Below are positions 6,447 to 22,113 of a stretch of 62,068 nucleotides of DNA, piece by piece. A program made the translations under genes and the position numbers. Each line of letters begins with the position of its first letter. Position 1 is the first letter of the stretch. The notes beneath the pieces were generated by a model that worked only from the letters and a program-made list of their open reading frames with translations, made no database searches and was not told where the DNA came from. The DNA comes from Roseimicrobium gellanilyticum (GTDB lineage: Bacteria > Verrucomicrobiota > Verrucomicrobiia > Verrucomicrobiales > Verrucomicrobiaceae): positions 1 through 62,068 of the forward strand of contig NZ_QNRR01000022.1 in NCBI RefSeq assembly GCF_003315205.1, written 5' to 3'.

Positions 6447-7775
6447 ATGCCTGCCTTCCGTTACGAAGCCATGAGCACCTCCGGTCAGCGCAGCGCTGGC
6501 ACGCTGGAGGCGGCGGATCGTGGCGAGGCCGTGAGGAAGCTGGCGCGCCGGGGCTTGCAGCCTTTTTCCCTGAGCGCGGAAGGTGGTAAACCCGTCGCAG
6601 CCTCCGGGGCGGCGAAGGAGAAGAATAGCAAGGGTGCGGGCGAGACTTCCGCGAAGACCAAAGCGGCGGTTTCCGCATCGAAGGCGCCGGTCTCCGGGAA
6701 GGCCAGCGCCGCCAAATCCGTGATCACCGGCCCTCTCAAGCTGAGCCGCTCGCAGGTGATCCAATTCACCGAAGAACTGTGCGATCTCCTCACGGCGGGC
6801 CTGCAACTGGAGCAGGCTCTGCATGCCATGGAGAACCGCAGCGTGCCTGTGCTGCGCCAGCTCGCTACCTCAGTACGTGAGCGCGTGCGGGACGGGCTGC
6901 CCCTGTCCGCGGCGCTGCATCAGGTGAGCCCGTCCTTTGATGAGTTGTACTGCAATCTCGTCTCCGCCGGGGAGGCGGGCGGTGCGCTGGGTTCCATTCT
7001 CAACCGCCAGGCGCGTCACCTGAACCAGCTTGAGCAACTCCGGGCCAAGGTGACCGGAGCGTTGATCTATCCGGCCTTCATCATCATCTCGGGCATTGCC
7101 TTGTCCGTGACCATGGTGACCTTCCTCCTGCCGAAGATGGCAGCGCTGGTGGAGAGCACAGGGAAGGAACTGCCCACGATGGCGCAGTGGCTCATGGCGA
7201 TGAGTGGCTTCATCAAGTCGTGGTGGTGGCTCCTCATTGCGGCGGTGATCCTTGTGGTCATCTCCGTGCATGTTCTGTTTCAGGACAAGGGCCGAATGGC
7301 CTGGTGGCACCGCAAGATGCTGGACCTGCCCATGTACGGGCCGGTGTTGCGCACGCGGTTTGAGGTGCAGTTCCTGGAGACACTGGGCAACCTGCTGAAG
7401 AATGGCCTCCCCTTGCACCGCGCATTGGAGCTGGTGCGAAAGGCAACCGTCAACCTCTACCTGCGGGAGCAGCTGGAGGCGGTGGAGACGGCCGTGCATG
7501 ACGGGGGCTCACTCAGCCGGGCCCTGGAGCGGGCGGGTGTGCTGCGGCCTCTGGTCATCGACATGGTGCGCGTGGGCGAGCAGACGGGGGAAATGGCGGA
7601 CGCGCTGGAGAAGGCGGCAGAACGCTTTGACCGTCAGCTCACGAAGACGATTGAGCATGCCACCGCGTTGCTGCAGCCCGTGCTCATGCTGGTCATGGCC
7701 GTACTGGTGGGCGGCATGGTGTGGATGATGATCAATATTGTGTTCTCCACCCTCCAGCAAATCCAGAGCCGCTAG
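6447..7775 (+). CDS. gspF: Type II secretion inner-membrane platform protein (GspF/PilC)
   Basis: A 442-residue polytopic protein that couples the ATPase to pseudopilin assembly. It begins with the family opening MPAFRYEAMSTSGQ..AGTLEA. A low-complexity Ala/Lys/Ser linker (~50-95) leads to two T2SSF domains (~105-230 and ~305-435). Membrane helices are visible near 205-230, 255-275 and 405-430. The motif LPLHRALEL in the second domain is typical. It follows gspE after 51 bases. The Ala/Lys linker is longer than in most relatives but has no obvious defect. Confidence 0.94.
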   Translation: MPAFRYEAMSTSGQRSAGTLEAADRGEAVRKLARRGLQPFSLSAEGGKPVAASGAAKEKNSKGAGETSAKTKAAVSASKAPVSGKASAAKSVITGPLKLSRSQVIQFTEELCDLLTAGLQLEQALHAMENRSVPVLRQLATSVRERVRDGLPLSAALHQVSPSFDELYCNLVSAGEAGGALGSILNRQARHLNQLEQLRAKVTGALIYPAFIIISGIALSVTMVTFLLPKMAALVESTGKELPTMAQWLMAMSGFIKSWWWLLIAAVILVVISVHVLFQDKGRMAWWHRKMLDLPMYGPVLRTRFEVQFLETLGNLLKNGLPLHRALELVRKATVNLYLREQLEAVETAVHDGGSLSRALERAGVLRPLVIDMVRVGEQTGEMADALEKAAERFDRQLTKTIEHATALLQPVLMLVMAVLVGGMVWMMINIVFSTLQQIQSR

Positions 7776-7828
7776 ACCGGGATGGATTCAAAGGGCATTT
7801 TATGTCCTTACCGTCACTTGCTTCCTCC

Positions 7829-7857
7829 TTGCTCCCATCACGGAAACTCCCTAGACT
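7829..7857 (+). promoter_or_regulatory. Internal promoter ahead of the pseudopilin genes
   Basis: TTGCTC (7829-7834), 17-bp spacer, TAGACT (7852-7857), 7 bases, ATG 7865. CCCTAGACTC is also present in the promoter before 3891. It would allow the major pseudopilin to be expressed above the level of gspE and gspF. Confidence 0.65.
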
Positions 7858-7864
7858 CACTGCC

Positions 7865-8305
7865 ATGAAAATTTCTCCAAATGCCCCGCAAGCACGGATG
7901 CGCAGTGCCGGCTTTACCCTCATGGAGATGATGCTGGTGCTCCTGATCATCGCACTGATCATGGGTGGCGTGGCTGTGACGTTCCAAAGTTTCGCCAACA
8001 GCGCAGAGGTCACGACGACCAAGACGAAAATTCAGAACATGGAAGCCAGCCTCATGGCTTACCGGACGAACAACGGCTGGTATCCGACCCAGCAGCAGGG
8101 ATTGGATGCCCTGGCCACCCAACCGACCGTGGAGCCCCTGCCGCGCATGTGGAAGCCTCTGGTGAAGTCTGATTCGCTCTACGATGCGTGGAGAAGAAAG
8201 CTGGCTTACCGCAATCCGGGCAAGCACAACTCTTCGGGTGTCGATGTGTATTCCCTTGGTGAGGATGGCGTTGACGGAACCAAGGACGACCTTGGGAACT
8301 GGTAA
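7865..8305 (+). CDS. gspG: Major pseudopilin GspG
   Basis: 146 residues. The start at 7865 leaves a 16-residue basic leader ending ...RSAG before the prepilin peptidase site (Gly16/Phe17), with Glu at +5 of the mature protein (FTLME) and a long hydrophobic helix. The C-terminal half has the GspG signature: WYPTQQQGLDAL, then PLVKSDSLYDAW, then YSLGEDGVDGTKDDLGNW with the acidic calcium-site region. The frame is open further upstream to 7721, but that would bury the leader and overlap gspF. It is the main subunit of the pseudopilus. Confidence 0.93.
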   Translation: MKISPNAPQARMRSAGFTLMEMMLVLLIIALIMGGVAVTFQSFANSAEVTTTKTKIQNMEASLMAYRTNNGWYPTQQQGLDALATQPTVEPLPRMWKPLVKSDSLYDAWRRKLAYRNPGKHNSSGVDVYSLGEDGVDGTKDDLGNW

Positions 8306-8320
8306 CCTGCCACCGGTATC

Positions 8321-8845
8321 ATGCACTTCCTCCGCCTGAGGCCTGAACCGCCGCCTGGCGCGGTTTCGCGGGCGGGTGGCTTCACCTTGCTGGAGCTGGT
8401 GGTCGTGCTGGTCATCATCTCGTTCGTGGTCGGCCTCGGAGTGATGAGTTTTGATGGTGTGGTGCAGGAGGGGGAACTGCGCAAGCCGGTGCTGGAGTTC
8501 AAGGACCTCACTGCGGAAGCTGTCCGACGGGCGACCCTGTACGAGCGTCCCCAGGTTTTGATCTTCGACAGTGCAGGCATGGTGATGCCTCTGCGCATGC
8601 GCCGTGAATCTGCTGGTGCGGTCATGCGCGTGAAGCGCTTCACGCTGCCACCCGGCATGTCGCTCATGTTACGCAGGTTTGGTTCGGACAAGTTTGCTCC
8701 CGCGGAGGGGCAGCGGCTCATCGTTTCCCCCAGCGGTTTGTGTGAGCCGCTCACTGCGCGTTTTCAGCGCGGGCAATCGTGGTTTGAGGTGACCCTCGAC
8801 CCGCTCACCGGTGCGGCGAAAGAGGAGCGCATGGTTGTGCAATGA
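8321..8845 (+). CDS. gspH: Minor pseudopilin, GspH-like
   Basis: 174 residues with a class III prepilin leader (cleavage RAGG/FTLLE, Gly20/Phe21) and a hydrophobic helix. The remainder fits a GspH-type globular domain: GVMSFDGVVQEGELRKPVLEF followed by alternating strands (split here only by its length). It starts 15 bases after gspG. GspH-type pseudopilins form part of the pseudopilus tip or shaft. Assignment to H rather than another minor subunit rests on order and size. Confidence 0.82.
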   Translation: MHFLRLRPEPPPGAVSRAGGFTLLELVVVLVIISFVVGLGVMSFDGVVQEGELRKPVLEFKDLTAEAVRRATLYERPQVLIFDSAGMVMPLRMRRESAGAVMRVKRFTLPPGMSLMLRRFGSDKFAPAEGQRLIVSPSGLCEPLTARFQRGQSWFEVTLDPLTGAAKEERMVVQ

Positions 8846-8855
8846 AGCTGCTGCC

Positions 8856-9317
8856 ATGATGAACACGCGCGGCGCATCTCACCCCAGGCATGATCTCAGG
8901 GCTGGTTTCACCCTGCTGGAGGCGATGCTTGCCGTGTTCATCTTTGGCATGGCAGCCGTGGCGTTGATGGAGGCCATCAATTCCAGCGGACGCATCTCGC
9001 TGGATGCGCGTGCCAGGGGAAACATCCAGATGCGCCTGGATAACATGCTGCTGGAAGCCACCCGCGATCCCATGTGGTCGGTGGATACGCGAGCGCAGGC
9101 TGGCACGGAGCGGACCGTGCGTGAACACGGCTTCACCTACATCATCAAGCGAGAGCCAATCGAGCTGAAGAATCAGGATGGCCAGCTCCTGCAGGGACTC
9201 TATCTGGTCCAGGTGAAAGCGCTCTGGATGGAGGGAGGCCGTGAGCAGAGTGCGATCGCGGAGACGTGGGCTTATCCGCTCATGTTCCGTCCGCCCAACC
9301 TGATGCAGGCACCATGA
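8856..9317 (+). CDS. gspI: Minor pseudopilin, GspI-like
   Basis: 153 residues from the ATG at 8856 (a second ATG follows at 8859). The leader ends RAG/FTLLEAM (Gly17/Phe18), with Glu at +5 and a GspI-like AVFIFGMAAVALMEAI helix. The mid-section DARARGNIQMRLDN and the later LVQVKALWMEGG suit the GspI fold. The frame is open upstream to 8811, inside gspH, but that would give an atypical leader. The stop overlaps the next start in an ATGA. GspI nucleates the GspI-J-K tip complex. Confidence 0.85.
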   Translation: MMNTRGASHPRHDLRAGFTLLEAMLAVFIFGMAAVALMEAINSSGRISLDARARGNIQMRLDNMLLEATRDPMWSVDTRAQAGTERTVREHGFTYIIKREPIELKNQDGQLLQGLYLVQVKALWMEGGREQSAIAETWAYPLMFRPPNLMQAP

Positions 9318-10114
9318 ACGCGACTGCATCCAACGCTGGTCCCATGAGGCGGAGGCTTGCTTCCCGTCGCAGCGGGAATGGTTTTACCTTGCTGGAGATG
9401 ATCATGGTGCTGCTCATCACGTCCATGCTGATCAGTGCCGTGTTCGGCATTGTGAATGCGGTGACGATTCTCACTCACGATCTCACCACTTCCCAGCAGC
9501 GGGAATCGCGCACGCATGCCTTTGTTGAGCTGTGTGCCCGCAGTCTCCGCAGCCTGCCAGCGGATGCCATGCTGCGACTGCGGACGCGACAGGATGGGGG
9601 ACTGTATACTACGCAGTTGGCCCTGGCAGATGCCCCCTCGCCGCTCTCTGCATCAGCAGGACCATTTACCGTGCTGGAGACGGAGGTCACTTCGGAAGGC
9701 TATCTCCGTCTCGTGGTGCGGTCGATTCCAGAGGACCAGGTGCTCGCGTGGGAGATGGGGGAGAGCACGGTGGGCACGCGCCTCGTACTGCTGGAGAATG
9801 TGCGCATGCTGGAGTGGCTGGTCTTCAACCCCACCACGCTTCAGTGGCAGACCGTGTGGAATGAGCGCATGCCCCTCACTGCGATGCGCGAGCTGGCCAA
9901 GAATGCAAACCCCGGCCGTCCCCAGGGGCCTCAGGCTCCCGGTGCGGATGCGCCTGCGCCGCCACCCAGTATTCCCCAAGACGTCCAGGAAGCTGTGAAT
10001 GCTCTGGGACGTCCGCAGCGTCCCGGTCTCATGGAATTGCGCTTCGCGATTGGAAATGAGGCTCCGCAGCGGTGGGTCTTCTGGGTGCCCGCGCGAGTCG
10101 CTGGTGGGCGATGA
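9314..10114 (+). CDS. gspJ: Minor pseudopilin, GspJ-like
   Basis: 266 residues, start at 9314 with a 4-nt ATGA overlap to gspI, implying translational coupling. The prepilin site is Gly23/Phe24 (GNG/FTLLE) after an Arg-rich leader. The globular part contains RTHAFVELCARSLRSLPAD and VRMLEWLVFNPTTLQWQ, in keeping with GspJ. Pro/Ala-rich stretch near 205-225 (PGADAPAPPPSIPQD). It is the last recognisable member of the operon; no GspK, L, M, C or D follows, so those subunits must be elsewhere or absent. Confidence 0.85.
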   Translation: MNATASNAGPMRRRLASRRSGNGFTLLEMIMVLLITSMLISAVFGIVNAVTILTHDLTTSQQRESRTHAFVELCARSLRSLPADAMLRLRTRQDGGLYTTQLALADAPSPLSASAGPFTVLETEVTSEGYLRLVVRSIPEDQVLAWEMGESTVGTRLVLLENVRMLEWLVFNPTTLQWQTVWNERMPLTAMRELAKNANPGRPQGPQAPGADAPAPPPSIPQDVQEAVNALGRPQRPGLMELRFAIGNEAPQRWVFWVPARVAGGR

Positions 10115-10329: not shown

Positions 10330-12279
10330 ATGCGAGGAGTTTCCAGCATCCTCCGCGTTTCTTCCCTGGGATGTGGAGTAAAGAAAAGGAAATGGCACCG
10401 AACCGCTGTTTCTCTCGCAGGCTGCGGCCTGTTGCTGGCCACCGCTATGCCCGCGTCCGGGGCCTCTCCCGCTGCAGCTCATGGGGGAGGTGTGCCCCGT
10501 GAGTCCACCCTGCTGGGCATGCCTCGAAACATGGCCCTGGCCTCTCTGGTCATCGTTCTTACCCAGACGGGATTGATCGTGGGTTTGCTGGTGGCGAATC
10601 GCCGGCGCAAGAGGCTGGCACGCGAGCAGGGCGAGCGACTGCGCTTCGAGCAAATCCTCACGGAGATCTCAGGGGATCTCGTCGAGGCGTCCGTGGAAAC
10701 GCTGGACAACGCCATCTGCCACGCGCTGGAGAAGGTGCGCGTGATGATGGAATTCCAATCCTGCATGTTGTTCGAGCATGTGCGTGACACCCAGGTGGTC
10801 CGCATCCTGTATCACACGGACGCTGCCGTGCGCGAGGCCATTGCCCGTAGGGAGGCAGAGATACCAATGCCCTGGCTATGCGCGCAGTTCCAGTACCGCA
10901 AAGCGATTCCCCTGGCCCATGCCTTGCAGGATCTGCCCGCCGACGCCCGGGAGGAGCAGGACTACGTGCGGGTGAAGAACATCAAGTCCGCGCTCATCAT
11001 CCCCCTGCACTCCACGGATGGGACCACGCATGGGGTATCATTCTGTACTGGGGTCGCATACCGCGAGTGGAGTGATACGGTCATCTCCCAGCTCCATGCG
11101 CTAGGGGACGTACTCTCGTCGTCGGTCTCCCGCCATCGCGCGGAGATGGAGCTTCGCCTTTCAGAAGAGCGATTCTCCAAGGCGTTCCACGCCAGTCCCA
11201 GTGCCATGGTGATCTTCCGGGCCAGGGATGAGACCATCCTCGACGTGAACGAAAGCTGGGAACGTCAGTTTGGCTATACCTATGCGGAGGCGGCTGGACA
11301 CCTGCCAGAGGAGCTGGGCATCTATCGCAGTGAAAAGGAGCGCCTTCGTCTTGGCTCGCTCGTGGATACCGTCGGCTCACTCAGGAACCACGAGATCACG
11401 CTCCGCACACGCACAGAGAGGGAGGTCGTCGCCATTCTCTCATTGGAGACCATCTCCATCCATGATGAGGCATGCTACATCGCGATCTTCCATGACGTCA
11501 CCGATCAACGGAGGGTGGAGGAGATGCGGCAGTCCATGGTGCATGTGTCACGTCTGGCGCTGGTGGGCGAACTCACGGCCTCCATCGCGCACGAAATCAA
11601 TCAGCCACTTGGTGCAATCCTGAGCAATGCTGAGGCCGCGGAAATGCTCATGGAGACGGAGAATCCGCCCCTGGATGACATCCGGCAAATCCTGGCGGAC
11701 ATTCGCAAAGATGATCTCAGGGCAAGCCAGGTCATCCGCCATATCCGCACGCTGGTGCGACGTGCGCCCCTGCGGCTCCTGCCCGTGCAGGTGAATGAAG
11801 TGGTGCTGGATGTGCTGAAGCTTTTGTCGACAGACGCGCAGCGACGCGGCATCATACTGCATGGTGATCTGGCTGCGGACGAGCCCGAAATATCGGCGGA
11901 CCGGGTGCATCTTCAGCAGGTGCTCATCAATCTGATTGTGAATGCCATGGATGCCATGAAGAGCAACGGCACCACCATCCCTATCGTCGACGTACGCACG
12001 TGGCGCGAGGGGCCGCATGGGGTCTCCGTCTCCGTGCGTGACCACGGGCACGGCATACCCGAAGACCGGCTGCCCCAGATATTTGAGTCCTTCTTCACAA
12101 CCAAAGTGGAGGGAATGGGGTTAGGACTGGCCATGGCGCGTTCGATTATCGAAGCCCATCGCGGAAGCATAGCGGCGCGGAACCTCGCCGAAGGTGGGGC
12201 AATGTTCACTTTCACGTTGCCCAGCGGGAATGGAAATGGAGCCGGAACACGAAACGCCACCATCGGGAGGTCCTCATGA
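10330..12279 (+). CDS. Membrane sensor histidine kinase (GAF-PAS-HisKA-HATPase), FixL-like
   Basis: 649 residues. An N-terminal hydrophobic signal/anchor (~25-45) and a second helix (~65-85, ALASLVIVLTQTGLIVGLLV) tether it to the inner membrane. A GAF-like domain (~105-270) is followed by a PAS domain (~280-395; FHASPSAMVIF, NESWERQFGYTYAEA). The HisKA box has His421 in IAHEINQPLGAIL, the FixL/DctB-type H-box. The ATPase has N-box NLIVNAMDAM, G1 DHGHGIP, F FESFFTTK and G2 GMGLGLAM. The PAS domain lacks an obvious heme pattern, so the signal is unknown. It overlaps the regulator gene by 4 nt, indicating a cognate pair. Confidence 0.93.
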   Translation: MRGVSSILRVSSLGCGVKKRKWHRTAVSLAGCGLLLATAMPASGASPAAAHGGGVPRESTLLGMPRNMALASLVIVLTQTGLIVGLLVANRRRKRLAREQGERLRFEQILTEISGDLVEASVETLDNAICHALEKVRVMMEFQSCMLFEHVRDTQVVRILYHTDAAVREAIARREAEIPMPWLCAQFQYRKAIPLAHALQDLPADAREEQDYVRVKNIKSALIIPLHSTDGTTHGVSFCTGVAYREWSDTVISQLHALGDVLSSSVSRHRAEMELRLSEERFSKAFHASPSAMVIFRARDETILDVNESWERQFGYTYAEAAGHLPEELGIYRSEKERLRLGSLVDTVGSLRNHEITLRTRTEREVVAILSLETISIHDEACYIAIFHDVTDQRRVEEMRQSMVHVSRLALVGELTASIAHEINQPLGAILSNAEAAEMLMETENPPLDDIRQILADIRKDDLRASQVIRHIRTLVRRAPLRLLPVQVNEVVLDVLKLLSTDAQRRGIILHGDLAADEPEISADRVHLQQVLINLIVNAMDAMKSNGTTIPIVDVRTWREGPHGVSVSVRDHGHGIPEDRLPQIFESFFTTKVEGMGLGLAMARSIIEAHRGSIAARNLAEGGAMFTFTLPSGNGNGAGTRNATIGRSS

Positions 12280-12932
12280 CGACTTGCACTGTGGATACCC
12301 TGGATGAAGAAGAAGTCTCCACGGTGCATGTGGTAGATGATGATGAATCCCTGCGCATGGCGATGACGCGGCTGTTGCGCGCGGCGGGTTATCATGTGCA
12401 GTCGTATGCTTCCGCGGGTGAGTACTTGCTGCGCCGGAAGCCAGGCATGAATGGCTGCCTGCTGCTCGATGTGCGCATGCCGGGACCCAGTGGCCTGGAA
12501 TTGCAGGCCGCATTACAAAATGATCGTGATGCCCTGCCCATCATCTTCCTGACGGCTCATGGAGACATCCCCATGAGCGTGCAGGCCATGAAACAGGGCG
12601 CGGTGGACTTCCTGACCAAGCCGGTGGAGAGCAAGGCTTTGCTGCATGCCATCAAGGGAGCGCTTGCAAAGCAGACCAGTGAAACTCACTCGCGGCGCTC
12701 CATGGATGAATATCGCAACCGTCTTCGCAGCCTCACGGAGCGGGAGCATCAGGTCTTTGTCGGCGTGGTGTCTGGCAAGCTGAACAAGCAGATCGCAGCC
12801 GATCTGGGCACGGTAGAGCGCACCGTGAAGGCTCATCGCTCGCAAGTCATGACGAAGATGCAGGCCACGTCCCTGGCGGATCTGGTGCACATGGCGGATA
12901 CTTTGCGGGCTGCGGGCTATGTTACAGAGTAG
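12276..12932 (+). CDS. FixJ/NarL-type response regulator
   Basis: 218 residues: receiver domain (~15-130) with acidic pocket DDD21-23, phospho-acceptor Asp65 in LLDVRMPGPSG, Thr in FLTAHGD and Lys in DFLTKPV; then a LuxR-type helix-turn-helix (~148-205) with LTEREHQVF and VERTVKAHRSQV. This is the DNA-binding partner of the upstream kinase (ATGA overlap). Receiver motifs PGPSG and GAVDFLTKP are characteristic of the FixJ group. The most likely direct targets are the promoter after it (12950-13019) and possibly the downstream envelope block; that is inference from position. Confidence 0.94.
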   Translation: MTTCTVDTLDEEEVSTVHVVDDDESLRMAMTRLLRAAGYHVQSYASAGEYLLRRKPGMNGCLLLDVRMPGPSGLELQAALQNDRDALPIIFLTAHGDIPMSVQAMKQGAVDFLTKPVESKALLHAIKGALAKQTSETHSRRSMDEYRNRLRSLTEREHQVFVGVVSGKLNKQIAADLGTVERTVKAHRSQVMTKMQATSLADLVHMADTLRAAGYVTE

Positions 12933-12949
12933 CCGTTTGGTTTAGGGGA

Positions 12950-13019
12950 CCCTGTACCAAGGTACAGGGCGGCCTAGAACCAAGGTACAATACCTAAACG
13001 GTGCGCGGGTGGCTATATC
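12950..13019 (+). promoter_or_regulatory. Two activator-type dyads and a -10 box before the receiver-only regulator
   Basis: The 12-bp dyad GTACCAAGGTAC (12954-12965), extended to a 9-bp-arm palindrome CCCTGTACC-AA-GGTACAGGG (12950-12969), recurs as GAACCAAGGTAC (12977-12988). Centre-to-centre spacing is 23 bp. A TATATC -10 box lies at 13014-13019 with a poor -35. With the start near 13026 the dyads centre at about -66 and -43, classic activator positions. The first palindrome could instead terminate the upstream operon, but no T-run follows. Confidence 0.6.
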
Positions 13020-13040
13020 TGGGTCCCTCACCCCCAGCGC

Positions 13041-13433
13041 ATGATGGCCACCGCACACCGCATCGTCATTGTGGAAGATGACCCAGGTATGAGCCAGGCG
13101 GTCGAACGTTTGCTTGGCGCGGCGGGGTATCCAGCGATCTCTTTTGCCAATGCAGAGTCCTTCCTTGAGGCATCTCCGACAGAGCAATTCTGCTGCTATG
13201 TATTTGATATCCGATTGACCGGCATGTCCGGGCTCGACCTCGCGGAGAGGCTCCATCAATCCGGCGACCTCACTCCATTCATCCTCATGACAGCGCATGA
13301 TGATGAGGCGCGGCAATCGCACCCTGCCATGGCACGTGCGTCCGCGCTTTTTACGAAACCCTTTTCCGGCAGGGAGTTTGTCGCGGCCATCAGAGGCGCA
13401 GCCCTGCCCGAAGCCACGGGTAGATCGCCATAG
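13041..13433 (+). CDS. Single-domain response regulator (receiver only)
   Basis: 130 residues forming one receiver domain with no output domain: acidic pair Asp13-Asp14, phospho-acceptor Asp56 in VFDIRLTGMSG, Thr in LMTAHDD and Lys in LFTKPFS. Two adjacent ATGs occur at 13041 and 13044. It resembles the receiver of the FixJ-like protein just upstream and may be a truncated duplicate. Such proteins act as phosphate sinks or as competitors for the kinase, giving feedback. Its own promoter carries the paired dyads described above. Confidence 0.88.
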   Translation: MMATAHRIVIVEDDPGMSQAVERLLGAAGYPAISFANAESFLEASPTEQFCCYVFDIRLTGMSGLDLAERLHQSGDLTPFILMTAHDDEARQSHPAMARASALFTKPFSGREFVAAIRGAALPEATGRSP

Positions 13434-13498: not shown

Positions 13499-14302
13499 AT
13501 GAAAACACGAGTTCCTGGAATCATCCACACTATTGCCATAGCCGCTGTCATGGGAGCGACGGGCCTCTTTGCGGGTACACCTGCGCCATCCAGCAAGTCC
13601 GTTGTCGTTCCTTCTGAGCCGCCGGAAAATCCCTGGTACTTCACGATGGCTGCCTACGGATGGCTCGCTGCCGTGAACGGTGACACGGGTATTGGACCCA
13701 TCACGGTCAGTGCTGACACGAGCCTCAATGACCTCATTGATGAATTCGACGGTTCCTTCATGACCTACCTAGAGGCAGGTTACAACCGATGGAGCGTGGG
13801 CATCGATGTCGTCTGGGGAAAGCTGAAGGATGACGCCTCTGTCGAGCGCGGGCCCTTCTTTGGCAAGGTGGGCTTCGAGCAGGAGCAGTGGCTCATCACT
13901 GCCCGCATCCAGTATGCGCTGGTGAAGAATGACACCACACGCCTTGATGTCTTCGCCGGTGGTCGCTGGATGTATCTGGAGGTGGATATCGATGTCGATA
14001 CCAACCTCGGGCCGGGCCGTCACTTCGGCATCGAGGAAGACTGGATCGATCCCATTGTGGGCGCGCGCATCATCCATGACTTCAGCGACAAGTGCTTCAT
14101 GCAGGCCATGGGCGACATCGGCGGCTTCGGAGCGGAGTCGGAGCTCACCTGGCAGGCGCTGCTGGGCGTTGGCTATCGCTTCACTCCCAATCTCTCCACC
14201 GTCATCGGCTATCGCGCGCTGGGCGTCGACTATGACAAGGACCAGTTCATCCTCGATACCATCTCCCACGGTCCCTTTGTCGGACTTTCTTACACCTTCT
14301 GA
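13499..14302 (+). CDS. Outer-membrane beta-barrel protein
   Basis: 267 residues with an N-terminal signal peptide (cleavage near GLFAGT). The mature part alternates hydrophobic and polar residues in strand-length units rich in Gly, Trp and Tyr (WYFTMAAYGWLAAV; WSVGIDVVWGKL; LDVFAGGRWMYLEVDI) and ends in an aromatic residue (GLSYTF), the BAM recognition signature. Loops are rich in Asp. Size suggests 8-12 strands. No specific substrate can be named. It is the first gene of the envelope block, 65 bases after the receiver-only regulator. Confidence 0.8.
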   Translation: MKTRVPGIIHTIAIAAVMGATGLFAGTPAPSSKSVVVPSEPPENPWYFTMAAYGWLAAVNGDTGIGPITVSADTSLNDLIDEFDGSFMTYLEAGYNRWSVGIDVVWGKLKDDASVERGPFFGKVGFEQEQWLITARIQYALVKNDTTRLDVFAGGRWMYLEVDIDVDTNLGPGRHFGIEEDWIDPIVGARIIHDFSDKCFMQAMGDIGGFGAESELTWQALLGVGYRFTPNLSTVIGYRALGVDYDKDQFILDTISHGPFVGLSYTF

Positions 14303-14391: not shown

Positions 14392-14444
14392 ACACCAAGC
14401 ATCCACGTGTGATCACGCGGACATCCTCACTGCCCCTTCATCTC

Positions 14445-15296
14445 ATGAACACAAAACCTTCCAGGCTGGCCGCGTGCCTCTGCGCGGTGGCATATCTCTC
14501 TCTCAACCTTCACGGACAAGAAACAAAAGAACCTGCGAGTGCTCCGAAATCTCAGCTCAAGGTTGAGGGCCAGGCCGTGGGCAAACCGGACCCCAAGGCC
14601 CTGGGCATCATCAATCGTGCGGCAGACTATCTTGCCAAGGCCAAGCAGTATCAGGCTACTGTCGAGGTGAGTCACGATGTGGTGTATGGAAAGAAATCGA
14701 AGCTGCAGTACACCAAACAGCTCGAGATCAAGCTGCGCCGTCCAGACCGGTTGCAGATCGAAGTTTCCACCACCGTACCCAGGCGCTCCTTCTGGTATGA
14801 CGGCAAGAACGTCACCCTCTTTGACCACAAGGAGAACTACTACGCGACTGCTCCTGCGGCGGACAAGATCGACGCGATGGTGGATCAGGTGGAAAAAGCT
14901 CTGGGTATCGCCTTCCCACTAGATGACCTCGTGCTCTCCAAGCCACTGAGCGAGCCCGCGTCGAGCGCGAAGAACAGCGCTTATCTCGGCAAGGAGAAAA
15001 TTCTTGGAAAGGTCTGCCATCACGTGGCTTTCGAACACAGGGCCATCGACTGGCAGGCATGGGTGGAGGACGGGCCGAAACCTCTCCTACGCAAGGTGGT
15101 GATCACCCTCAAGTTTGAAGAGGGCTCGCCGCAGATCACCGCCTTCATCTCGAACTGGGACATGGGCACGAAGCTGCCGGATTACGTCTTCGAGTTCGAG
15201 GCGCCCAAGGGTGCCGAGGCCATCAAGTTCATGGCGTCCACAGACACGCCCGGAGAGCAGAAGGCCCCCGCCACTGAAGTGAAGTCCGGCAACTAA
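14445..15296 (+). CDS. Secreted DUF2092-family protein
   Basis: 283 residues from the ATG at 14445, which gives a signal peptide (AACLCAVAYLSLNLHGQ). The open frame runs upstream into the barrel gene but only as a shadow. The body matches the DUF2092 pattern of a LolA-like beta sheet: KAKQYQATVEVSHDVVYG, then KLRRPDRLQIEV, then FWYDGKNVTLFDHKENYYA. These proteins resemble periplasmic lipoprotein-carrier folds, though the function is unproven. Neighbours are all secreted. The C-terminus is hydrophilic. Family call is from recognised sequence pattern. Confidence 0.8.
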   Translation: MNTKPSRLAACLCAVAYLSLNLHGQETKEPASAPKSQLKVEGQAVGKPDPKALGIINRAADYLAKAKQYQATVEVSHDVVYGKKSKLQYTKQLEIKLRRPDRLQIEVSTTVPRRSFWYDGKNVTLFDHKENYYATAPAADKIDAMVDQVEKALGIAFPLDDLVLSKPLSEPASSAKNSAYLGKEKILGKVCHHVAFEHRAIDWQAWVEDGPKPLLRKVVITLKFEEGSPQITAFISNWDMGTKLPDYVFEFEAPKGAEAIKFMASTDTPGEQKAPATEVKSGN

Positions 15297-15313: not shown

Positions 15314-16039
15314 ATGAAGACCAATCAACGAATCGCGAGAGGCACCGGTGTGACCATCATGGCGGCTCTACTCACCACATGGCTGCCACAGCAATCACTG
15401 CAGGCAGACTGGCATCGTAGCGGCAGCATTCACCGCTCCGCGCACATCGATGCCCACGGATGGGGCGGTGGGGGACATGTGGATGTGAACCGCAGCTTCC
15501 ATCGCGATGTGGATGTGCATGGACATGGTGGCAGCTGGGACGTGCACCGCGACATCCATCGGGATGTGGATATCGACGTCCATAATCACGATCACTTCTG
15601 GGGTGGTGTGGCCGTGGGTGCCGCGACCACACTCGCGGTCGGCGCCATGGTGCATGCCCTGCCTCCCACACACACGACTGTGGTGGTGGCGAATCAGCCC
15701 TACTACTACGACGCCGGGGTGTACTACCGGCCCGCACCGAGCGGGGGGTATGTGACGGTCGCTGCTCCCATGGGCGCGGTGATTGCCACGCTGCCGCCAG
15801 GTGCCGTGTCAGTGGTGCTGGGGAACCAGAGCTTCTTCTACAACAGCGGCGTGTACTACCAGCAGCAGGGCACGGCCTTCATCGTGGCTCCCGTGCCCAT
15901 TGGTGTCGTTGTGCCCTCACTCCCTCCCGGAGCACAAGCCACGGTCATCAATGGCCAGACCTACTTCAACTTCCAGGGAACCACCTACCAGCCGGTCTTC
16001 ATGAATGGGGCCACCTCCTACATCACGGTGAAGATCTGA
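15314..16039 (+). CDS. Secreted His-rich protein with three tandem repeats (DUF6515-like)
   Basis: 241 residues with a signal peptide (cleavage after LQA). Residues ~30-95 are dense in His, Asp and Gly in HxDxHG / HRDVD units, suggesting metal binding. A hydrophobic Gly/Ala segment (~95-115) follows. The C-terminal ~120 residues are three repeats of about 43 residues, each with a NQ/NG-x-x-[FY][FY] strand, a GVYY or GTTY step and an LPPGA ending (ANQPYYYDAGVYYR; GNQSFFYNSGVYYQ; NGQTYFNFQGTTYQ). The pattern recalls DUF6515. Function unknown. It follows the DUF2092 gene by 17 bases, so they are co-transcribed. Confidence 0.78.
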   Translation: MKTNQRIARGTGVTIMAALLTTWLPQQSLQADWHRSGSIHRSAHIDAHGWGGGGHVDVNRSFHRDVDVHGHGGSWDVHRDIHRDVDIDVHNHDHFWGGVAVGAATTLAVGAMVHALPPTHTTVVVANQPYYYDAGVYYRPAPSGGYVTVAAPMGAVIATLPPGAVSVVLGNQSFFYNSGVYYQQQGTAFIVAPVPIGVVVPSLPPGAQATVINGQTYFNFQGTTYQPVFMNGATSYITVKI

Positions 16040-16071: not shown

Positions 16072-17430
16072 ATGAAACGGACCCTCACCTTCGCCGCCTC
16101 GTGTCTGCTCATGGCATGGCACGGGGCCGGCCATGTCGTGGCTCAGGCTCCGGCCCCGGCTCCCACTCCGACGCCTGCCGCGCCCCAGCCTTACCAGGCG
16201 ACCGACCCCACTGGGCAGGCAGCGGCAGCAACGGCCCCAGTGCCTGTAGGGAAGTTCGAAACTCCGCCGGTGCTGGTGGCCCCTGCCATTCTGCAACCGC
16301 AGTATCACCGGGGTGCCTACCACACGGTGCGTCCTCAGGTAAGCACGTATGCGGGACGCAACAGCTACACCATCGATTCGCAGTTCGGAGTCTTCTATGC
16401 GGAGGGGAATGCGGAGCTCATGGCGCGAGTCGCGGAGATCAACGCCATCGCAAAGCTGCAGTCTGTATCCAAGTCGGATGAATATGCGAAAGCCCTCGAG
16501 CGCGCCGCGAAGAGCCCGGTGACCTTTGCCAAGAACCTCGCTACGGACCCGGTGAACACCATCGAAGGCGTGCCGAAGGGCATCTTCAAGTTCCTCCATC
16601 GCACCGGCGCTGCCGTGAAGGAGAAGGTGGAGGGGCGTGAGACCAGTCCCTATGAGGACAACACCATGGAGAGTGCCATCGGCTTCTCCAAGTCCAAGCG
16701 CGATCTCGCCGCGCGTCTCGGTGTGGATCCCTACTCGTCGAATCCCGTCTTCCAGAAGGCCATCAATGGCGTCGCCTGGGCAGCCTACGCAGGCAACATG
16801 ACCCTTGCCGCAGTGCTCGCTCCCGTGGATGGCGGCGCGGGCACCGTGGTCACCACCGTGCAGGTGAGTGATGTAGCCACGAATGCGCTACGCGACATGA
16901 GCCCCAATGACCTGCGGCAGATGCACAAGAAAACGCTGCTGGGCATGGGTGTCTCAGAGCCGGTCATCGATGGCTTCCTGCGCAGCCGCGCCTTCTCCCC
17001 CACGCACCAGCTGTCATTGGTCACTGCGCTCAGTCAGTTGAAGGGCACGGCGGGACCGGAGTGGTTCCTGCAAACGGCCACACGTGCTTCGGATGATGAA
17101 GCGGATGCCTTCTTCTACACACGCAGCGCGCAGCTGATGGCGCTGCAGCACAAGACCACACCCATCGCCACCATCTACACGCTGAATGACCTGCCCGTCT
17201 GTTTTGCGCGGGATGGCACCCTCATCGTGCCCCTGGAGTGGGACTACGCCTGCTGGACCCAGGGAGCATCGGACTTCCTGCAGCGCGTGCGCCTGGCCAA
17301 CTACCGCGGTGCCAAGGTGACCGGTCATCGCGTGGTCATCACCGGCGTGGCCTCGCCGAAACTGAAGGAGGAGCTCGCCAAGCAGCAGGTGGTCCTCATT
17401 GAAAAAGCCCTCCCGGGTCCGCTGCTCTAG
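16072..17430 (+). CDS. Unrecognised secreted protein, copy A of a paralogous pair
   Basis: 452 residues: signal peptide (to ~VVAQ), a Pro/Ala-rich linker (APAPAPTPTPAAP), then a large globular part that I cannot assign. It shares with the protein at 27574 a set of blocks in the same order: YTIDS (99), EGVPKGIFKFLHR.G, SKRDLAARLGVDPYSSN (D219), SRAFSPTHQ, DAFFYTRSAQLMAL, LPVCFARDG, PLEWDYACWT and ITGVASP (423). The long shared C-terminal half suggests a folded enzyme-like or scaffold domain. Both copies lie next to sulfatase and transporter genes in the same block. Confidence 0.8.
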   Translation: MKRTLTFAASCLLMAWHGAGHVVAQAPAPAPTPTPAAPQPYQATDPTGQAAAATAPVPVGKFETPPVLVAPAILQPQYHRGAYHTVRPQVSTYAGRNSYTIDSQFGVFYAEGNAELMARVAEINAIAKLQSVSKSDEYAKALERAAKSPVTFAKNLATDPVNTIEGVPKGIFKFLHRTGAAVKEKVEGRETSPYEDNTMESAIGFSKSKRDLAARLGVDPYSSNPVFQKAINGVAWAAYAGNMTLAAVLAPVDGGAGTVVTTVQVSDVATNALRDMSPNDLRQMHKKTLLGMGVSEPVIDGFLRSRAFSPTHQLSLVTALSQLKGTAGPEWFLQTATRASDDEADAFFYTRSAQLMALQHKTTPIATIYTLNDLPVCFARDGTLIVPLEWDYACWTQGASDFLQRVRLANYRGAKVTGHRVVITGVASPKLKEELAKQQVVLIEKALPGPLL

Positions 17431-17493: not shown

Positions 17494-18306
17494 ATGAAAT
17501 CAGCCACCACCACGCTCTTTGCCTCGTTGCTTGCCTTCACAGCAGGCAGCCTCCCCATGAGCTCCCGCGCGCAGGATCACGATGCTGCCGAGCTGGCGAA
17601 GCAGCTCTCCAATCCCGTGGCGGCTCTCATCAGTGTGCCGTTTCAAAACAACTTCGAGTGGGGTGGGGGACCAGAGGGGGATGGCTTCCGCTACCTGCTG
17701 AATTTCCAGCCCGTGGTCCCCATCACCTTGAATGAGGAGTGGAACATGATTTCGCGCACCATCGTGCCCTTCATTTCCCAGGAGGACATGATTGGCCGCA
17801 GCAGCCAGACAGGCTTGGGAGACATCACGCAGAGCCTCTTCTTCTCCCCGAAGAATCCGGGACCCGGCGGCTGGATCATCGGCGTTGGTCCCGCCTTCCT
17901 CATTCCCACGGCCACAGATGACCTGCTGGGCACCGAGAAATTTGGTCTTGGACCCACGGCCGTGCTGCTGAAGCAGGCACACGGTTGGACCTTTGGCGCA
18001 TTGCTCAATCACATCTGGTCTGTCGCAGGGGATGGCGATCGCGATGACGTCAGCTCCACCTTCGTCCAGCCCTTCCTCTCCTACACTACGAAGAAGCAGA
18101 CCACCTTCACTCTCAATTCTGAGTCCACGTATGACTGGGAGCACGAGCAGTGGACTGTGCCTGTCAATCTAAGCGTGGCGCAGTTGGTCAAGATTGGCGG
18201 CCATCCGTACCAGTTCCAGCTCGGCGCCAAGTACTACGCCGATGGTCCCGAGGGCACGCCCGACTGGGGCGTGCGCTTCTCGGTCATCTTCCTGTTCCCG
18301 AAGTGA
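17494..18306 (+). CDS. Outer-membrane barrel, transporter-like, copy 1
   Basis: 270 residues with a signal peptide (cleavage near SSRAQ). The mature start AELAKQLSNPVAALISVPFQ is typical of a family often labelled 'transporter' or, misleadingly, 'neuromedin U'. Gly- and aromatic-rich strands follow (WNMISRTIVPFISQ; GLGDITQSLFFSPK; GLGPTAVLLKQ; GALLNHIWSVAG), and the chain ends in a strand (VRFSVIFLFPK). A clear paralogue is encoded at 21304. Localisation to the outer membrane is well supported by pattern; the cargo is unknown. It lies directly upstream of a sulfatase. Confidence 0.82.
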   Translation: MKSATTTLFASLLAFTAGSLPMSSRAQDHDAAELAKQLSNPVAALISVPFQNNFEWGGGPEGDGFRYLLNFQPVVPITLNEEWNMISRTIVPFISQEDMIGRSSQTGLGDITQSLFFSPKNPGPGGWIIGVGPAFLIPTATDDLLGTEKFGLGPTAVLLKQAHGWTFGALLNHIWSVAGDGDRDDVSSTFVQPFLSYTTKKQTTFTLNSESTYDWEHEQWTVPVNLSVAQLVKIGGHPYQFQLGAKYYADGPEGTPDWGVRFSVIFLFPK

Positions 18307-18391
18307 TCTCCCATGGTCCCACAATGACATCGCAGCAACACCTTTGCCTATCTCTCATCAGTCAGTACACCCACCCAACTCCAAAACTACA

Positions 18392-19954
18392 ATGAGACGA
18401 ACATCACTGATAGCCAACTTGCTGTTGGCCGCCTCACTGGCGATTTGCGCATCAGCATCCGCGCAGACCGGAGGCAAGAAACCCAACATCCTCGTGATCT
18501 GGGGTGATGACATCGGCACCTGGAACACCAGCTTCTGGAGCCGGGGGATGATGGGCTATCAAACGCCCAACATCGACCGCATCGCCAGGGAAGGCGTAGC
18601 CTTCACCGACTACTACGGTCAGCAGTCCTGCACGGCCGGACGAGCTGCTTTCATCGGTGGCAATGTGCCTGTGCGAACCGGCATGACCAAGGTCGGGATG
18701 CCCGGCGCGAAGGAAGGCTGGCAGAAGACCGATGTGACGATGGCCACGGTGCTGAAGTCACAGGGCTATGCCACCGGCCAGTTCGGAAAGAATCACCAAG
18801 GCGACCGTGACGAACATTTGCCAACGCAGCACGGCTTTGATGAGTTCATGGGAAACCTCTATCACCTCAACGCCGAGGAGGAGCCGGAGCACGAGGACTA
18901 TCCCGGCGACATGGTGATGGCGGACGGGAAGACCTTTAAGCAAAAGTTCGGTCCCCGCGGTGTGCTGAAATGCACTGCCGACGGAAAGATCGAAGACACC
19001 GGCCCGCTGACGCGCAAACGCATGGAAACCGTGGACGAGGAAACGCTCGCCGCGACCAAGGATTTCATCCAGCGGCAGGTGAAGGCGGATAAGCCCTTCT
19101 TCTGCTGGTTCAACACGACGCGCATGCACTTCCGTACGCATGTGAAGAAGGAGCACCGCCACAAAGGGAATGACGAGTACACCGACGGCATGATCGAGCA
19201 TGACAACATGGTCGGCGATGTCCTGAAGTTCCTTGATGACAACAAGCTCACGGAGAACACCATCGTGATGTACTCCACGGACAATGCGCCGCACTACAAC
19301 GCGTGGCCCGATGGTGGCACCGTGCCCTTCCGCAGTGAGAAGAATTCCAACTGGGAAGGCGCTTATCGCGTGCCTTGCTACGTGCGCTGGCCCGGACACA
19401 TCCCTGCGGGCACGGTGCTCAATGGAATCGTCTCGCACGAAGACTGGCTGCCGACGTTTGCGGCCATTGCTGGTGCGCCGGACATCAAGGAAAAGCTCGC
19501 CGCCGGTGTGGAGCTGAATGGGCGTAAATACAAGAACTACATCGATGGCCACAACCAGCTCGACTACATCACTGGCAAAGTGAAGGACTCGCCTCGCCGT
19601 GAGTTCATGTATGTGAACGACGACGGCCAGATCGTCGCCATCCGCTACGACGCATGGAAGGCGGTGTTCCTCGAGAATCGTGGTCACGCCTTTGAAGTCT
19701 GGCGCGAGCCCTTCATCGAATTGCGTGTACCGTTGCTCTTCAATCTGAAGCGCGATCCATTCGAGAAGGCCCAGCACAACGCGAACGTCTACAACGACTG
19801 GTTCCTGGATCGCGTCTACCTCCTGGTGCCGATGCAGGTGTATGCGAGCAAGTTCTTGCAGACCATGGTGGACTACCCGCCAAGCCAGACACCTGGCTCA
19901 TTCAACCTCGAGAAAGTTCAGAAGCAAATCGAGGCCTCCATGGGCGGCAAGTAA
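18392..19954 (+). CDS. Secreted arylsulfatase, copy 1
   Basis: 520 residues. Start 18392 gives a signal peptide ending SASA. Alkaline-phosphatase superfamily sulfatase: metal-binding Asp-Asp in NILVIWGDDIG, the formylglycine signature Cys80-Thr-Ala-Gly-Arg in YGQQSCTAGR, GKNHQGDRDEHLPTQHGFDE, and the late DNAPH/ED..PT motifs. It would hydrolyse sulfate esters in the periplasm or outside after Cys80 is converted to formylglycine. The frame is open upstream to 18194 but that lies in the preceding gene. Similar to the sulfatases at 31087 and 33323, with one extra insert DYPGDMVMADGK. No maturase gene is in the window. Confidence 0.93.
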   Translation: MRRTSLIANLLLAASLAICASASAQTGGKKPNILVIWGDDIGTWNTSFWSRGMMGYQTPNIDRIAREGVAFTDYYGQQSCTAGRAAFIGGNVPVRTGMTKVGMPGAKEGWQKTDVTMATVLKSQGYATGQFGKNHQGDRDEHLPTQHGFDEFMGNLYHLNAEEEPEHEDYPGDMVMADGKTFKQKFGPRGVLKCTADGKIEDTGPLTRKRMETVDEETLAATKDFIQRQVKADKPFFCWFNTTRMHFRTHVKKEHRHKGNDEYTDGMIEHDNMVGDVLKFLDDNKLTENTIVMYSTDNAPHYNAWPDGGTVPFRSEKNSNWEGAYRVPCYVRWPGHIPAGTVLNGIVSHEDWLPTFAAIAGAPDIKEKLAAGVELNGRKYKNYIDGHNQLDYITGKVKDSPRREFMYVNDDGQIVAIRYDAWKAVFLENRGHAFEVWREPFIELRVPLLFNLKRDPFEKAQHNANVYNDWFLDRVYLLVPMQVYASKFLQTMVDYPPSQTPGSFNLEKVQKQIEASMGGK

Positions 19955-20032: not shown

Positions 20033-21307
20033 ATGTTTGAAGGCGTCACCATCCTTACCACCTTTGCCATCGCCATGACCATGGTCGTGCTGATGCCGAA
20101 GCTCATGGAGAGGCTGCGCCTGCCGGCGATTCTTGGCTTCATCATCGCCGGGTTTCTGCTGGGTCCGGCGGCCATGGGCCTCATCAAGGAGGATGGCCCG
20201 GTCATCTACCTGCTCGCGGAGTTGGGGAAACTGCTCTTCATGTTCTTCGTGGGCTTCGAGATCGATCTCGATGACTTCAAGAAGACACGCACACGGTCGA
20301 TCACGTTCGGCGTGCTGACCTTCATCCTGCCCTTTGCCGCCGGGGTGTTGGTGGGCAGGCTCACAGGGTTTGGTTGGAATGCATCCCTGCTCATCGGCTC
20401 GATCATCGCGTCGCACACGCTGCTCGCCTTTCCCATCCTGCAGAAGCTGGGTCTCACGCAGCATCCCACGGTGCTCATGGTCGTGGGCGGCACCATCTTC
20501 ACGGACATCGCCTCCATGCTCGTGCTGGCGGTGACGGTGAGCGTGCACCTCACCGGCTTCTCCTGGAGCTTTCTCGGGAAGGAGATGCTGGAGCTCGCCA
20601 TCTTTGTGCCGCTCATCCTGTTTGGCGCGGGCAATCTCGCGCGCAAGGCCATCATCCGCTACGGGCAGAAGCCCGAGCTGCGCGTGACCATCATGCTGGT
20701 GGTGATTGTGGTGTGCGCGGAGGGCGCGCGCATCATCAACCTTGAGGGCATCGTGGGCGCCTTCCTCGCAGGTATTGCCGTGAAGCGCGCGGTGCGTGGG
20801 AAGTTCGCCGTGGAGCAGTTGGAAGTCACCTCGCAGGCACTCTTCATCCCCGCCTTCTTCCTCACCACCGGCTTCCTCGTGGATCCCGTAGTGCTGAAGC
20901 AGTCCATCACGGAGAGCCCCGGCATGACCTTCGGCATGCTGGCGGGTGTGCTTGCCGGGAAGACAGTCGCGGCCTTGCTCACCGGCCTCATCTTCCGGCA
21001 GTCACGCCCAGAGATGGGAACGGTCGCGAGCCTCTCCTTCCCCCAGATGGCAGCCACGCTGGCTTCTGCCGTGGTGGGTTATCAATGCATCAACAGCCAG
21101 GGCGTACGCCTGCTGGATGCCACCTTTGTAAATGCCTCGGTGCTCATCGTCATCGTCACCTGCGTGCTCGGCCCTATCCTTACGGAGCGCTATGCGAAGC
21201 AGATGCGGCAGGATGCGACGGCTGAGGCGAAAACTTCATCGGCGTCAGAATCAGAGGTCGCCGTTGCGCCGGACGTAGCGACTGAAAGGAGGTCGCTGTG
21301 CTCATGA
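20033..21307 (+). CDS. Cation/proton antiporter (CPA2, KefB-like)
   Basis: 424 residues, about 12 hydrophobic helices and no soluble regulatory (TrkA-N) domain. Characteristic stretches: LRLPAILGFIIAGFLLGP, LLFMFFVGFEIDL, LLIGSIIASHTLLAFPIL, VVGGTIFTDIASMLVLAV and EGIVGAFLAGIAVKRAV. These match monovalent cation:H+ antiporters of the inner membrane that exchange K+ or Na+ for protons. The C-terminal ~25 residues are polar. The stop overlaps the next ATG (ATGA at 21304). Together with HdeD in the same block it points to pH or ion homeostasis; the ion is not known. Confidence 0.9.
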   Translation: MFEGVTILTTFAIAMTMVVLMPKLMERLRLPAILGFIIAGFLLGPAAMGLIKEDGPVIYLLAELGKLLFMFFVGFEIDLDDFKKTRTRSITFGVLTFILPFAAGVLVGRLTGFGWNASLLIGSIIASHTLLAFPILQKLGLTQHPTVLMVVGGTIFTDIASMLVLAVTVSVHLTGFSWSFLGKEMLELAIFVPLILFGAGNLARKAIIRYGQKPELRVTIMLVVIVVCAEGARIINLEGIVGAFLAGIAVKRAVRGKFAVEQLEVTSQALFIPAFFLTTGFLVDPVVLKQSITESPGMTFGMLAGVLAGKTVAALLTGLIFRQSRPEMGTVASLSFPQMAATLASAVVGYQCINSQGVRLLDATFVNASVLIVIVTCVLGPILTERYAKQMRQDATAEAKTSSASESEVAVAPDVATERRSLCS

Positions 21308-22113
21308 AACGCGCACACACTCTGCTGATTCCTGCACTGCTTGGGCTGGCCATGGGCTTGTGCGTGCCTACTTCGCGCGCTGCGGATCCTGAAGCTTCCA
21401 AGCATGATCTCGCCAAGGAACTGAAGAATCCCGTGAGCAGCCTCACGCTGCTGCCCCTCCAGTTCAATGTGGAGGTCGGCGCCGGGGAGGGGCATCCCGT
21501 GGGCACCACGCTGAACATCGAGCCGGTGGTGCCCTTCAAACTCAATGAAGACTGGCGCGTCATCACCCGAGTGGTGGCACCCGTGGTGTATCAGGAATCA
21601 TCCATTCCAGGATTCGACGATGCCTTTGGCCTCAGTGACATCGAGCTGAGCCTCTTCCTAGCCCCGGTGAAGAAGGACGGAGACAGCCTGGTGTGGGGCG
21701 TGGGCCCCATCTTCGAGTTCCCCACCACCACGGACCCGCTGCTGGGGCCGGAGAAGTGGGGCTTCGGCCCCACCGTGGTATTGGTGAAGCAGACGGGCTG
21801 CTGGACCTTTGGCCTGCTGCTCAATCACCTCTGGTCCGTCGGGGGCGCGGGTCCACAGGATGTAAGTGCCTCCTTCATCGACGCGTGGATGAGCTACACC
21901 TGGCGCAGCGGCTTCGCGGTGAATCTGGAGAGCGAGACCACTTATGACTGGGAAGACTCGCAAGCGACCATTCCCATCCGTGCCGGCGTGAGCCAGCTCG
22001 TCACCCTCGGCAGCCAGCCCATCCAGTTCAATCTCGATGGCCTCTACTTCTTCGAGCACGCCCCGGAAGGTCCCGAGTGGGGTGTGAGCTTCACGGTCAC
22101 TTTTGTTTTCTAG
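21304..22113 (+). CDS. Outer-membrane barrel, transporter-like, copy 2
   Basis: 269 residues from the ATG that overlaps the antiporter stop; a GTG two codons earlier is an alternative. Signal peptide ends near SRAAD. It is a paralogue of the protein at 17494, sharing LAKELKNPVSSLTLLPLQF, PVVPFKLNEDWRVITRVVAP, the GLSDIELSLFLAP strand, GPTVVLVKQ..CWTFGLLLNHLWSV and a terminal strand WGVSFTVTFVF ending in Phe. Translational coupling to the antiporter is unusual for an outer-membrane protein and suggests a joint physiological role. Confidence 0.83.
   Translation: MKRAHTLLIPALLGLAMGLCVPTSRAADPEASKHDLAKELKNPVSSLTLLPLQFNVEVGAGEGHPVGTTLNIEPVVPFKLNEDWRVITRVVAPVVYQESSIPGFDDAFGLSDIELSLFLAPVKKDGDSLVWGVGPIFEFPTTTDPLLGPEKWGFGPTVVLVKQTGCWTFGLLLNHLWSVGGAGPQDVSASFIDAWMSYTWRSGFAVNLESETTYDWEDSQATIPIRAGVSQLVTLGSQPIQFNLDGLYFFEHAPEGPEWGVSFTVTFVF

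Follow-up and report, generated by a model that had tools for sequence, protein, structure and literature searches.

A predicted class II operator between a FixJ/StyR-type regulator gene and a receiver gene of Roseimicrobium gellanilyticum, and its relatives in other phyla

We analyzed a stretch of 62,068 nucleotides from Roseimicrobium gellanilyticum (the window), contig C22 in a genome of 7.93 Mb. At the locus of interest, the frame of a sensor histidine kinase overlaps by 4 bases that of a response regulator, and a gap of 108 bases separates the regulator gene from the gene of a receiver-only protein (REC), the first in a run of seven genes ending with an arylsulfatase (Table 1). Both of the dyads studied here lie in this gap, with the seven-gene run behind them. 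Checking of the sequence placed the core of dyad 1, GTACCAAGGTAC, at 12954-12965 and the core of dyad 2, GAACCAAGGTAC, at 12977-12988, two near-identical elements at a distance of 23 bp, exactly where a first-pass annotation of the sequence had reported them. The core of dyad 2, which contains ACCAAGGT, is an imperfect palindrome (GAACC/GGTAC) and reads ACC-AA-GGT followed by ACAAT, with AATA directly after the core. An outer inverted repeat, GTTTAGG...CCTAAAC (window 12940-12999), encloses both dyads and is probably due to chance, because its right arm is not kept in a genome of the same genus (G288).

The annotation had also proposed a good -10 and a poor -35, with the dyads at about -66 and -43. 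Results agreed with this description: counted from the inferred start, the dyads are centered at -66.5 and -43.5, the gap contains a -10-like TATATC that differs from TAnnnT in its final T, and a search of 12900-13100 returned 0 promoter-like sites and no consensus -35. Directly upstream of the kinase, an ORF run (6447-10114) resembles by eye type II secretion and pseudopilin genes (GspF-, GspG/H/I/J-like). Behind the seven-gene run, the + strand of 20033-34879 encodes a Na/H exchanger, a weakly Phenol_MetA_deg-like protein, three DUF1254/DUF1214 proteins, a HAD hydrolase, a zinc peptidase and two more sulfatases.

Table 1. Features around the predicted operator (window coordinates).
Feature	Coordinates	Strand	Basis
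Sensor histidine kinase (GAF-like, PAS, HisKA, HATPase)	10330..12279	+	Pfam HATPase_c 1e-24, HisKA 1e-8, PAS_8 3e-7; GAF just under cut-off
FixJ/NarL-type response regulator, presumed operator binder	12276..12932	+	Response_reg and GerE; nearest solved structure 1yio; helix TVKAHR
Extended dyad 1, CCCTGTACCAAGGTACAGGG, accessory upstream operator copy (predicted), center ~-66.5	12950..12969	.	19/20 kept in G288; like copy at L057
Dyad 2, predicted main operator, TAGAACCAAGGTACAATA, center ~-43.5	12975..12992	+	PWM score 23.7, its own gap being among the 23 used for building the PWM; core + AATA (12977-12992) 16/16 in G288
-10 element TATATC, 30 nt past the central AA of dyad 2	13014..13019	+	Spacing as in other sites
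Inferred transcription start	13026	+	From -10 position
REC (single-domain response regulator), first gene behind the predicted operator	13041..13433	+	Response_reg only
Outer-membrane beta-barrel protein	13499..14302	+	OMP_b-brl 5e-7
DUF2092 periplasmic protein	14439..15296	+	1e-66
DUF6515 protein	15314..16039	+	4e-33
Conserved protein without Pfam match	16072..17430	+	Relative within the window at 27775
Conserved protein without Pfam match	17494..18306	+	Thiobacillus relatives (L059, L060) behind operator copies
Arylsulfatase, end of probable REC operon	18389..19954	+	Sulfatase 1e-43; relatives behind operator in S. meliloti, S. fredii and G288

The regulator matched Response_reg (9e-27) and GerE (2e-18), which makes it a member of the NarL/FixJ family, as the annotation had said of the gene adjacent to the dyads. 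Against the FixJ equivalog model NF006900 it reached 214.4 bits, below the cut-off of 255, and it is thus not FixJ proper. Among solved structures the nearest was 1yio (2e-55), which we take to be StyR, and FixJ came next. REC has D13, D14, D56, T84 and K106. The equivalent of D56 is kept in 21 of 25 aligned receiver-like picks; the remaining 4 are picked ORFs that failed to align as receivers. Since this aspartate is kept, REC is probably phosphorylatable, and a role as phosphate sink would be possible besides a FixT-like inhibition.

The G288 regulator is 88% identical to that of the window. The alignment of the two gaps revealed a footprint over both dyads (Table 1) and a 23-bp distance between them that is retained; the block 12933-12969 is kept at 35/37 positions and 13012-13022 at 9/11, with CTATATCT retained as -10. 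By contrast, the spacers drift (3/7 and 11/19), against 74/93 and 78/99 in the neighboring coding DNA.

We then looked at the gaps behind related regulators. Contigs were scanned with a four-sequence regulator alignment, and the best 80 of at least 547 confirmed loci were used; leaving out regulator matches that were partial or below 44% identity gave 23 places with a receiver-like match no more than 450 bp behind the regulator (the gap set) and 61 other places. A ZOOPS de novo search of the 23 gaps returned CTGGACCAAGGTACAATA with a log-likelihood of 169 (400 random starts), whereas 12 dinucleotide-shuffled sets stayed at or below 74 (120 starts per set). Dyad 2 is an instance of this element, whose general form is about TTGGACC-AA-GGTCCAATA. 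The 86 loci scanned next came to 1.56 Mb and contained the training gaps; an 18-column PWM at a threshold of 15.5 gave 67 matches there, in 57 distinct places, vs 6 in reversed sequence. The PWM scan found no second site at or above 15.5 in the window, and dyad 1 as an 18-mer scores just 10.4, because it is missing the AATA. Among the 57 places, only the window and L057:10710 have a copy 23 bp upstream, and in a tree, the regulator before the latter is among the two closest to that of the window; at L064 two copies are 15 bp apart.

These sites are placed at a fixed distance from a putative -10. TAnnnT occurs exactly 30 nt past the central AA in 24 of the 57 sites and at 29 to 31 nt in 29, while other triples of offsets gave a mean of 1.06 and a maximum of 5; with the looser nAnnnT, 33 of the 57 sites matched at +30 and the next best offset had 6. 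The PWM does not include the -10, which makes this spacing a separate property of the sites. With such a spacing, the dyad would be centered at about -43.5 and the element would cover the -35 region with its right end.

The tree mentioned above holds 83 regulators (the 84 places and two regulators of this genome, with L061, L115 and L116 left out for a stop in the match), which were compared at the recognition helix, TVKAHR in the window. At the third helix position 50 regulators have lysine and 33 glutamate. A site scoring at least 15 lies within 300 nt downstream of 25 of the 50 lysine-helix regulators, and of 20 of the 25 that have a REC downstream, vs 0 of the 33 with glutamate. We dropped this difference as an independent proof of the link with the motif, since the tree holds one lysine/glutamate change, which is a single evolutionary event.

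Held-out loci were taken from the organism's own family, in which a regulator-protein search of 59 genomes (16 matched at E <=1e-45) gave 23 regulator loci. A site scoring at least 12 was found within 300 nt downstream in 19 of the 23 and one scoring at least 15 in 15, while reversed sequence gave 0/23 at 12. With the window excluded, 16 of the 18 held-out sites have nAnnnT at +30 and no other offset has more than 3, the loose pattern and the score limit of 12 having been chosen after some of these sites had been seen. Outside this genus the figure is 12/13, and 9/9 at scores of at least 15; the strict TAnnnT falls at +30 in 4/18, with at most 1 at other offsets. Several of the held-out genomes are close relatives, so the counts stand for fewer independent events. 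When the 59 family genomes were searched with a 52-column profile (model R1), 15 had sites. The regulator occurs in 16 genomes, the element in 15 and both in 12 (Fisher 6e-7; 5e-6 without this genus). Of 21 new loci, two pairs of which overlap, 17 adjoin a gene for a regulator, a receiver, DUF1254, DUF2092, an OMP or a relative of the gene at 16072/27574, and 4 do not.

We also searched for other copies in this genome and in G288. A profile search of the two genomes returned 9 places at E <=10. The window site was not significant there (E 0.285) despite being among the profile's 26 sequences; given so weak a genome-wide value, the case for the site rests on its context and conservation. In G288, the sites precede a sulfatase, the orthologous receiver gene, a DUF2092 gene (Pfam 1e-29) followed by a protein that is DUF6515-like by eye and has no Pfam match, and a DUF3302 gene followed by HlyD (both assigned by Pfam); the orthologue of a site on contig C12 was also recovered. 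The G288 sulfatase (C1:4827141) matches in two frames, and its gene may be broken. In our genome, an exact, non-coding ACCAAGGTACAATA at G000:C8:322234 (L022, L049, L177; PWM 26.0) precedes a remnant of an arylsulfatase (residues 458-516 only), the longer relative of which is the G288 sulfatase behind its like operator. An operator-like site at C1:1269670 (L168, L174), with TAnnnT at +29, precedes a gene remnant 76% identical over 50 residues to the DUF6515-like protein of G288. The site at C1:701331, among the top G000 matches, stands before an AAA/TPR/SpoIIE protein, which does not belong to the gene set.

We scanned 60 of the 62 ORFs downstream of sites (L108:10000-13164 and L093:8023-9021 were left out) and found 21 Response_reg, 5 Sulfatase, 3 DUF2092, 2 DUF3300, 2 HlyD, 2 Ysc84 and 2 Phenol_MetA_deg, with single matches to DUF1254, a mechanosensitive channel and others. 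This tally, which covers 25 of 45 families among the matches listed, is a lower bound, because the longest ORF was picked and some picks are out of frame (L057 twice, L077, L093).

Similar modules occur in Sinorhizobium. On S. meliloti pSymA the order is mechanosensitive channel (on the opposite strand), kinase, regulator, receiver-only gene and arylsulfatase; in S. fredii it is kinase, regulator, receiver-only gene and arylsulfatase, then an OMP and DUF2092 on the other strand. The elements before the receiver and arylsulfatase genes, CTTCCCC(T/A)AAGGACAATAGG and CTTCCCCAAAGTACAATAGC, have CCCC in the left half and keep the right half; the sites before REC (n=2) have no TAnnnT at +30. On pSymA, a further site stands before a mechanosensitive-channel gene.

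Three separate regulator genes of this genome (C22, C12 and C8) have such a site downstream. At C12:166331 (L050), a second FixJ-type regulator is followed by ACCTAGGTATAATA, a variant of ACCAAGGTACAATA with two differences, and by a second receiver-only gene; after the latter comes, by eye, a receiver fused to an NtrC-type-activator-like domain. The third system, at C8:108920-110080 (L172), consists of a kinase, a FixJ-type regulator, TAGCACCAAAGTTCTATA and a receiver protein, and its box is unchanged in G288, unlike the bases that follow it. The copy of ACCAAGGTACAATA on C8 and the C12 variant suggested a regulon and not a local repeat. With three paralogous regulator loci and related sites in one genome, dyad 2 might be a real activator operator that is bound by the C12 and/or C8 regulators, and in G288 a perfect ATTGTACCAAGGTACAAT indeed lies upstream of the sulfatase, about 7.5 kb from the C8-type regulator and not near a C22-type one. 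Yet the outer bases of the three boxes differ (GAACC..GGTAC for C22, AGACC..GGTAT for C12 and GCACC..AGTTC for C8), each being kept in G288, and the recognition helices differ as well (TVKAHR, TVKTHR and TVKIHR, respectively; TVKVHR in the C8-type regulator of G288). We therefore consider binding by a paralogue improbable, if still the best placed of the alternatives.

Another explanation is that the dyads act in RNA, in which case extended dyad 1 would be a hairpin that terminates the transcript of kinase and regulator, and dyad 2 would resemble it by chance or descent. The 8-bp arms of dyad 1 are kept in G288, where the sole change falls in the loop, and the predicted fold of 12925-13045 reaches -47.4 kcal/mol (z -1.75), but 8 of 200 shuffles fold equally well and no T run comes after dyad 1. 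Moreover, the cross-phylum element has a fixed distance to the -10 and no long arms, and it also stands before genes that do not adjoin a regulator. A role as RNA hairpin thus appears very unlikely.

The annotation had advised a genome scan for G[TA]ACCAAGGTAC. As a regulon query this strict 12-mer was uninformative and we dropped it: it has 3 exact matches in the 7.93-Mb genome, for a uniform expectation of about 1.9, and the sole one besides the two dyads falls inside a glgC-like coding frame (C7:116487). At up to 1 mismatch there were 16+12 matches genome-wide vs 33+34 in the reversed control; with 28 against 67, there is no genome-wide enrichment of the literal motif. Nevertheless, two of the three exact copies in the whole genome stand just 23 bp apart, which is far from chance. 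That they are chance repeats without function, as the absence of enrichment might be read, is hardly credible in view of the G288 footprint and of a cross-phylum motif with fixed spacing.

Two other queries were also rejected. Across 288 genomes of the phylum, ACCAAGGTACAATA gave the 2 matches of this genome and a single further one, which lies in an open frame; the query is too strict across genera. ACCNNGGTANAATA has 11 matches in this genome, of which 1 is coding (C14) and 7 belong to one repeat near contig ends. This repeat, ACCATGGTAAAATA, recurs within 66 bases of seven contig ends, at 53-66 in C4, C5, C9 and C26 and at the far ends of C6, C15 and C21; it is probably what broke the assembly, perhaps at rRNA operons.

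A literature query with the string GACCAAGGTC led us to the motif of CrbR (ErdR). According to the excerpts of PMC5715377, CrbR, a LuxR-type regulator, activates acs of P. fluorescens by way of an inverted repeat that spans -52 to -36 relative to the mapped start; activity is abolished by four point mutations in this repeat. The CrbR system (ACTU) resembles the present one in its LuxR-type regulator and in an imperfect inverted repeat (predicted sites include TACTACCAAAGTCTAAT), the center of which is at about -44 in the acs promoter, against a predicted -43.5 for dyad 2. It differs in controlling acetate genes, in its SLC5-STAC hybrid kinase and in a motif described in Gammaproteobacteria, and the excerpts name no receiver-only target (PMC5715377, excerpts). 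Dyad 2 conforms to the inverted-repeat pattern of ACTU/CrbR-like operators, ACC/T-NN-A/GGT. Scored with the present PWM, six published ACTU sites gave 3.2 to 17.1 (p <=0.0054 against their own shuffles), two of the six lying above 15.5. A CrbS/R acetate system, with its SLC5-STAC kinase and acs/actP targets, does not fit the Pfam matches of the kinase (GAF-like, PAS, HisKA and HATPase) or the genes behind the site (REC, OMP, DUF2092, DUF6515 and sulfatase). ErdR, the CrbR homologue, shifts promoter fragments, with higher affinity after acetyl phosphate treatment (excerpts of PMC8402216), and RpuR of S. fredii, from a related SLC5/STAC-kinase system, has a direct repeat (excerpts of PMC9100948). 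The acs result thus offers, as far as those excerpts go, an existing experimental example of activation through an ACC-NN-GGT palindrome at about -44.

For StyR, the excerpts of PMC5874301 propose Lys175, Val176 and His179 as DNA contacts and give a StyR/TodT consensus, ATAAACN4GTTTAT, the flanks of which (AAAC/GTTT) differ from GGACC/GGTCC here. In our own helix alignment, the window regulator keeps the lysine (StyR Lys175) and has Ala for Val176 and Ser for His179. The full StyR box presumably shares ACC-NN-GGT at its center with the element.

In FixLJ-FixT, as the excerpts of PMC7078487 describe it, a FixJ-type regulator induces a single-domain receiver that acts as feedback inhibitor of the kinase, and S. 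meliloti FixT showed no detectable phosphorylation. The window has the same combination of kinase, FixJ-type regulator and single-domain receiver. It differs in that its regulator falls under the FixJ cut-off, that 0/33 glutamate-helix regulators have a site, and that its REC has two cysteines vs four in Caulobacter FixT.

Taken together, we assign a high probability to dyad 2 being, as predicted from sequence, the operator of the neighboring regulator in class II position. We also consider it very likely that the bound regulator would activate the run from REC to the arylsulfatase. The sequence itself shows that the element is conserved and fixed in its spacing, in what context it lies, and that copies precede related genes; from here we infer binding by the 12276 product, activation, the operon extent, cooperativity and feedback. 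The linked kinase would phosphorylate the regulator, which would bind the ACC-NN-GGT palindrome at about -43.5, beside RNA polymerase. Transcription would then start at a promoter that has a -10 but lacks a -35, and extend through REC (13041), the OMP, DUF2092 and DUF6515 genes to the arylsulfatase, dyad 1 probably serving for cooperative binding as a second copy 23 bp upstream. The REC product would probably limit the response by acting back on the kinase, either as competing phosphate acceptor or as FixT-like inhibitor.

The annotation had read the paired dyads as a FixJ/NarL-type operator. That holds up well for dyad 2, given the cross-phylum element, the rigid -10 spacing, the adjoining regulator gene and the likeness to the CrbR operator, whereas dyad 1 is better described as an extra upstream copy. 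The autoregulatory loop that it had predicted through the receiver survives in part: because the site lies behind the regulator gene and before REC, the regulator would not control its own gene, while feedback by REC is plausible from the FixT precedent.

More broadly, we put forward, as an evenly balanced proposal, that lysine-helix FixJ/StyR-type regulators of many phyla (Pseudomonadota, Verrucomicrobiota, Acidobacteriota, Thermodesulfobacteriota, Omnitrophota and others) may share one grammar: NTGNACC-NN-(A/G)GTNCAATA at -43.5, a 30-nt gap to the -10 and no -35. They would be wired to REC and to a traveling set of envelope genes (arylsulfatase, DUF2092, DUF1254, DUF3300, DUF3302-HlyD and DUF6515), with the outer bases insulating paralogues. 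Searches of titles and abstract beginnings (arylsulfatase/FixJ, the DUF set/two-component, the string GGACCAAGGTCC) returned no description of such a regulon. As far as these literature searches show, the kind of operator is known, and the cross-phylum regulon, its fixed grammar and the receiver-first wiring are new.

In conclusion, a repeat first noticed by eye yields an operator rule that can be tested and that is legible in genomes without annotation. It predicts membership in the regulon across phyla and would give a first handle on DUF2092, DUF1254, DUF3300 and DUF6515. S. meliloti pSymA, which carries the same kinase-regulator-REC-arylsulfatase module, makes this organism a tractable one for such tests. 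The wiring also suggests that FixJ/StyR-type systems may commonly use receiver feedback of the kind known from FixLJ-FixT.
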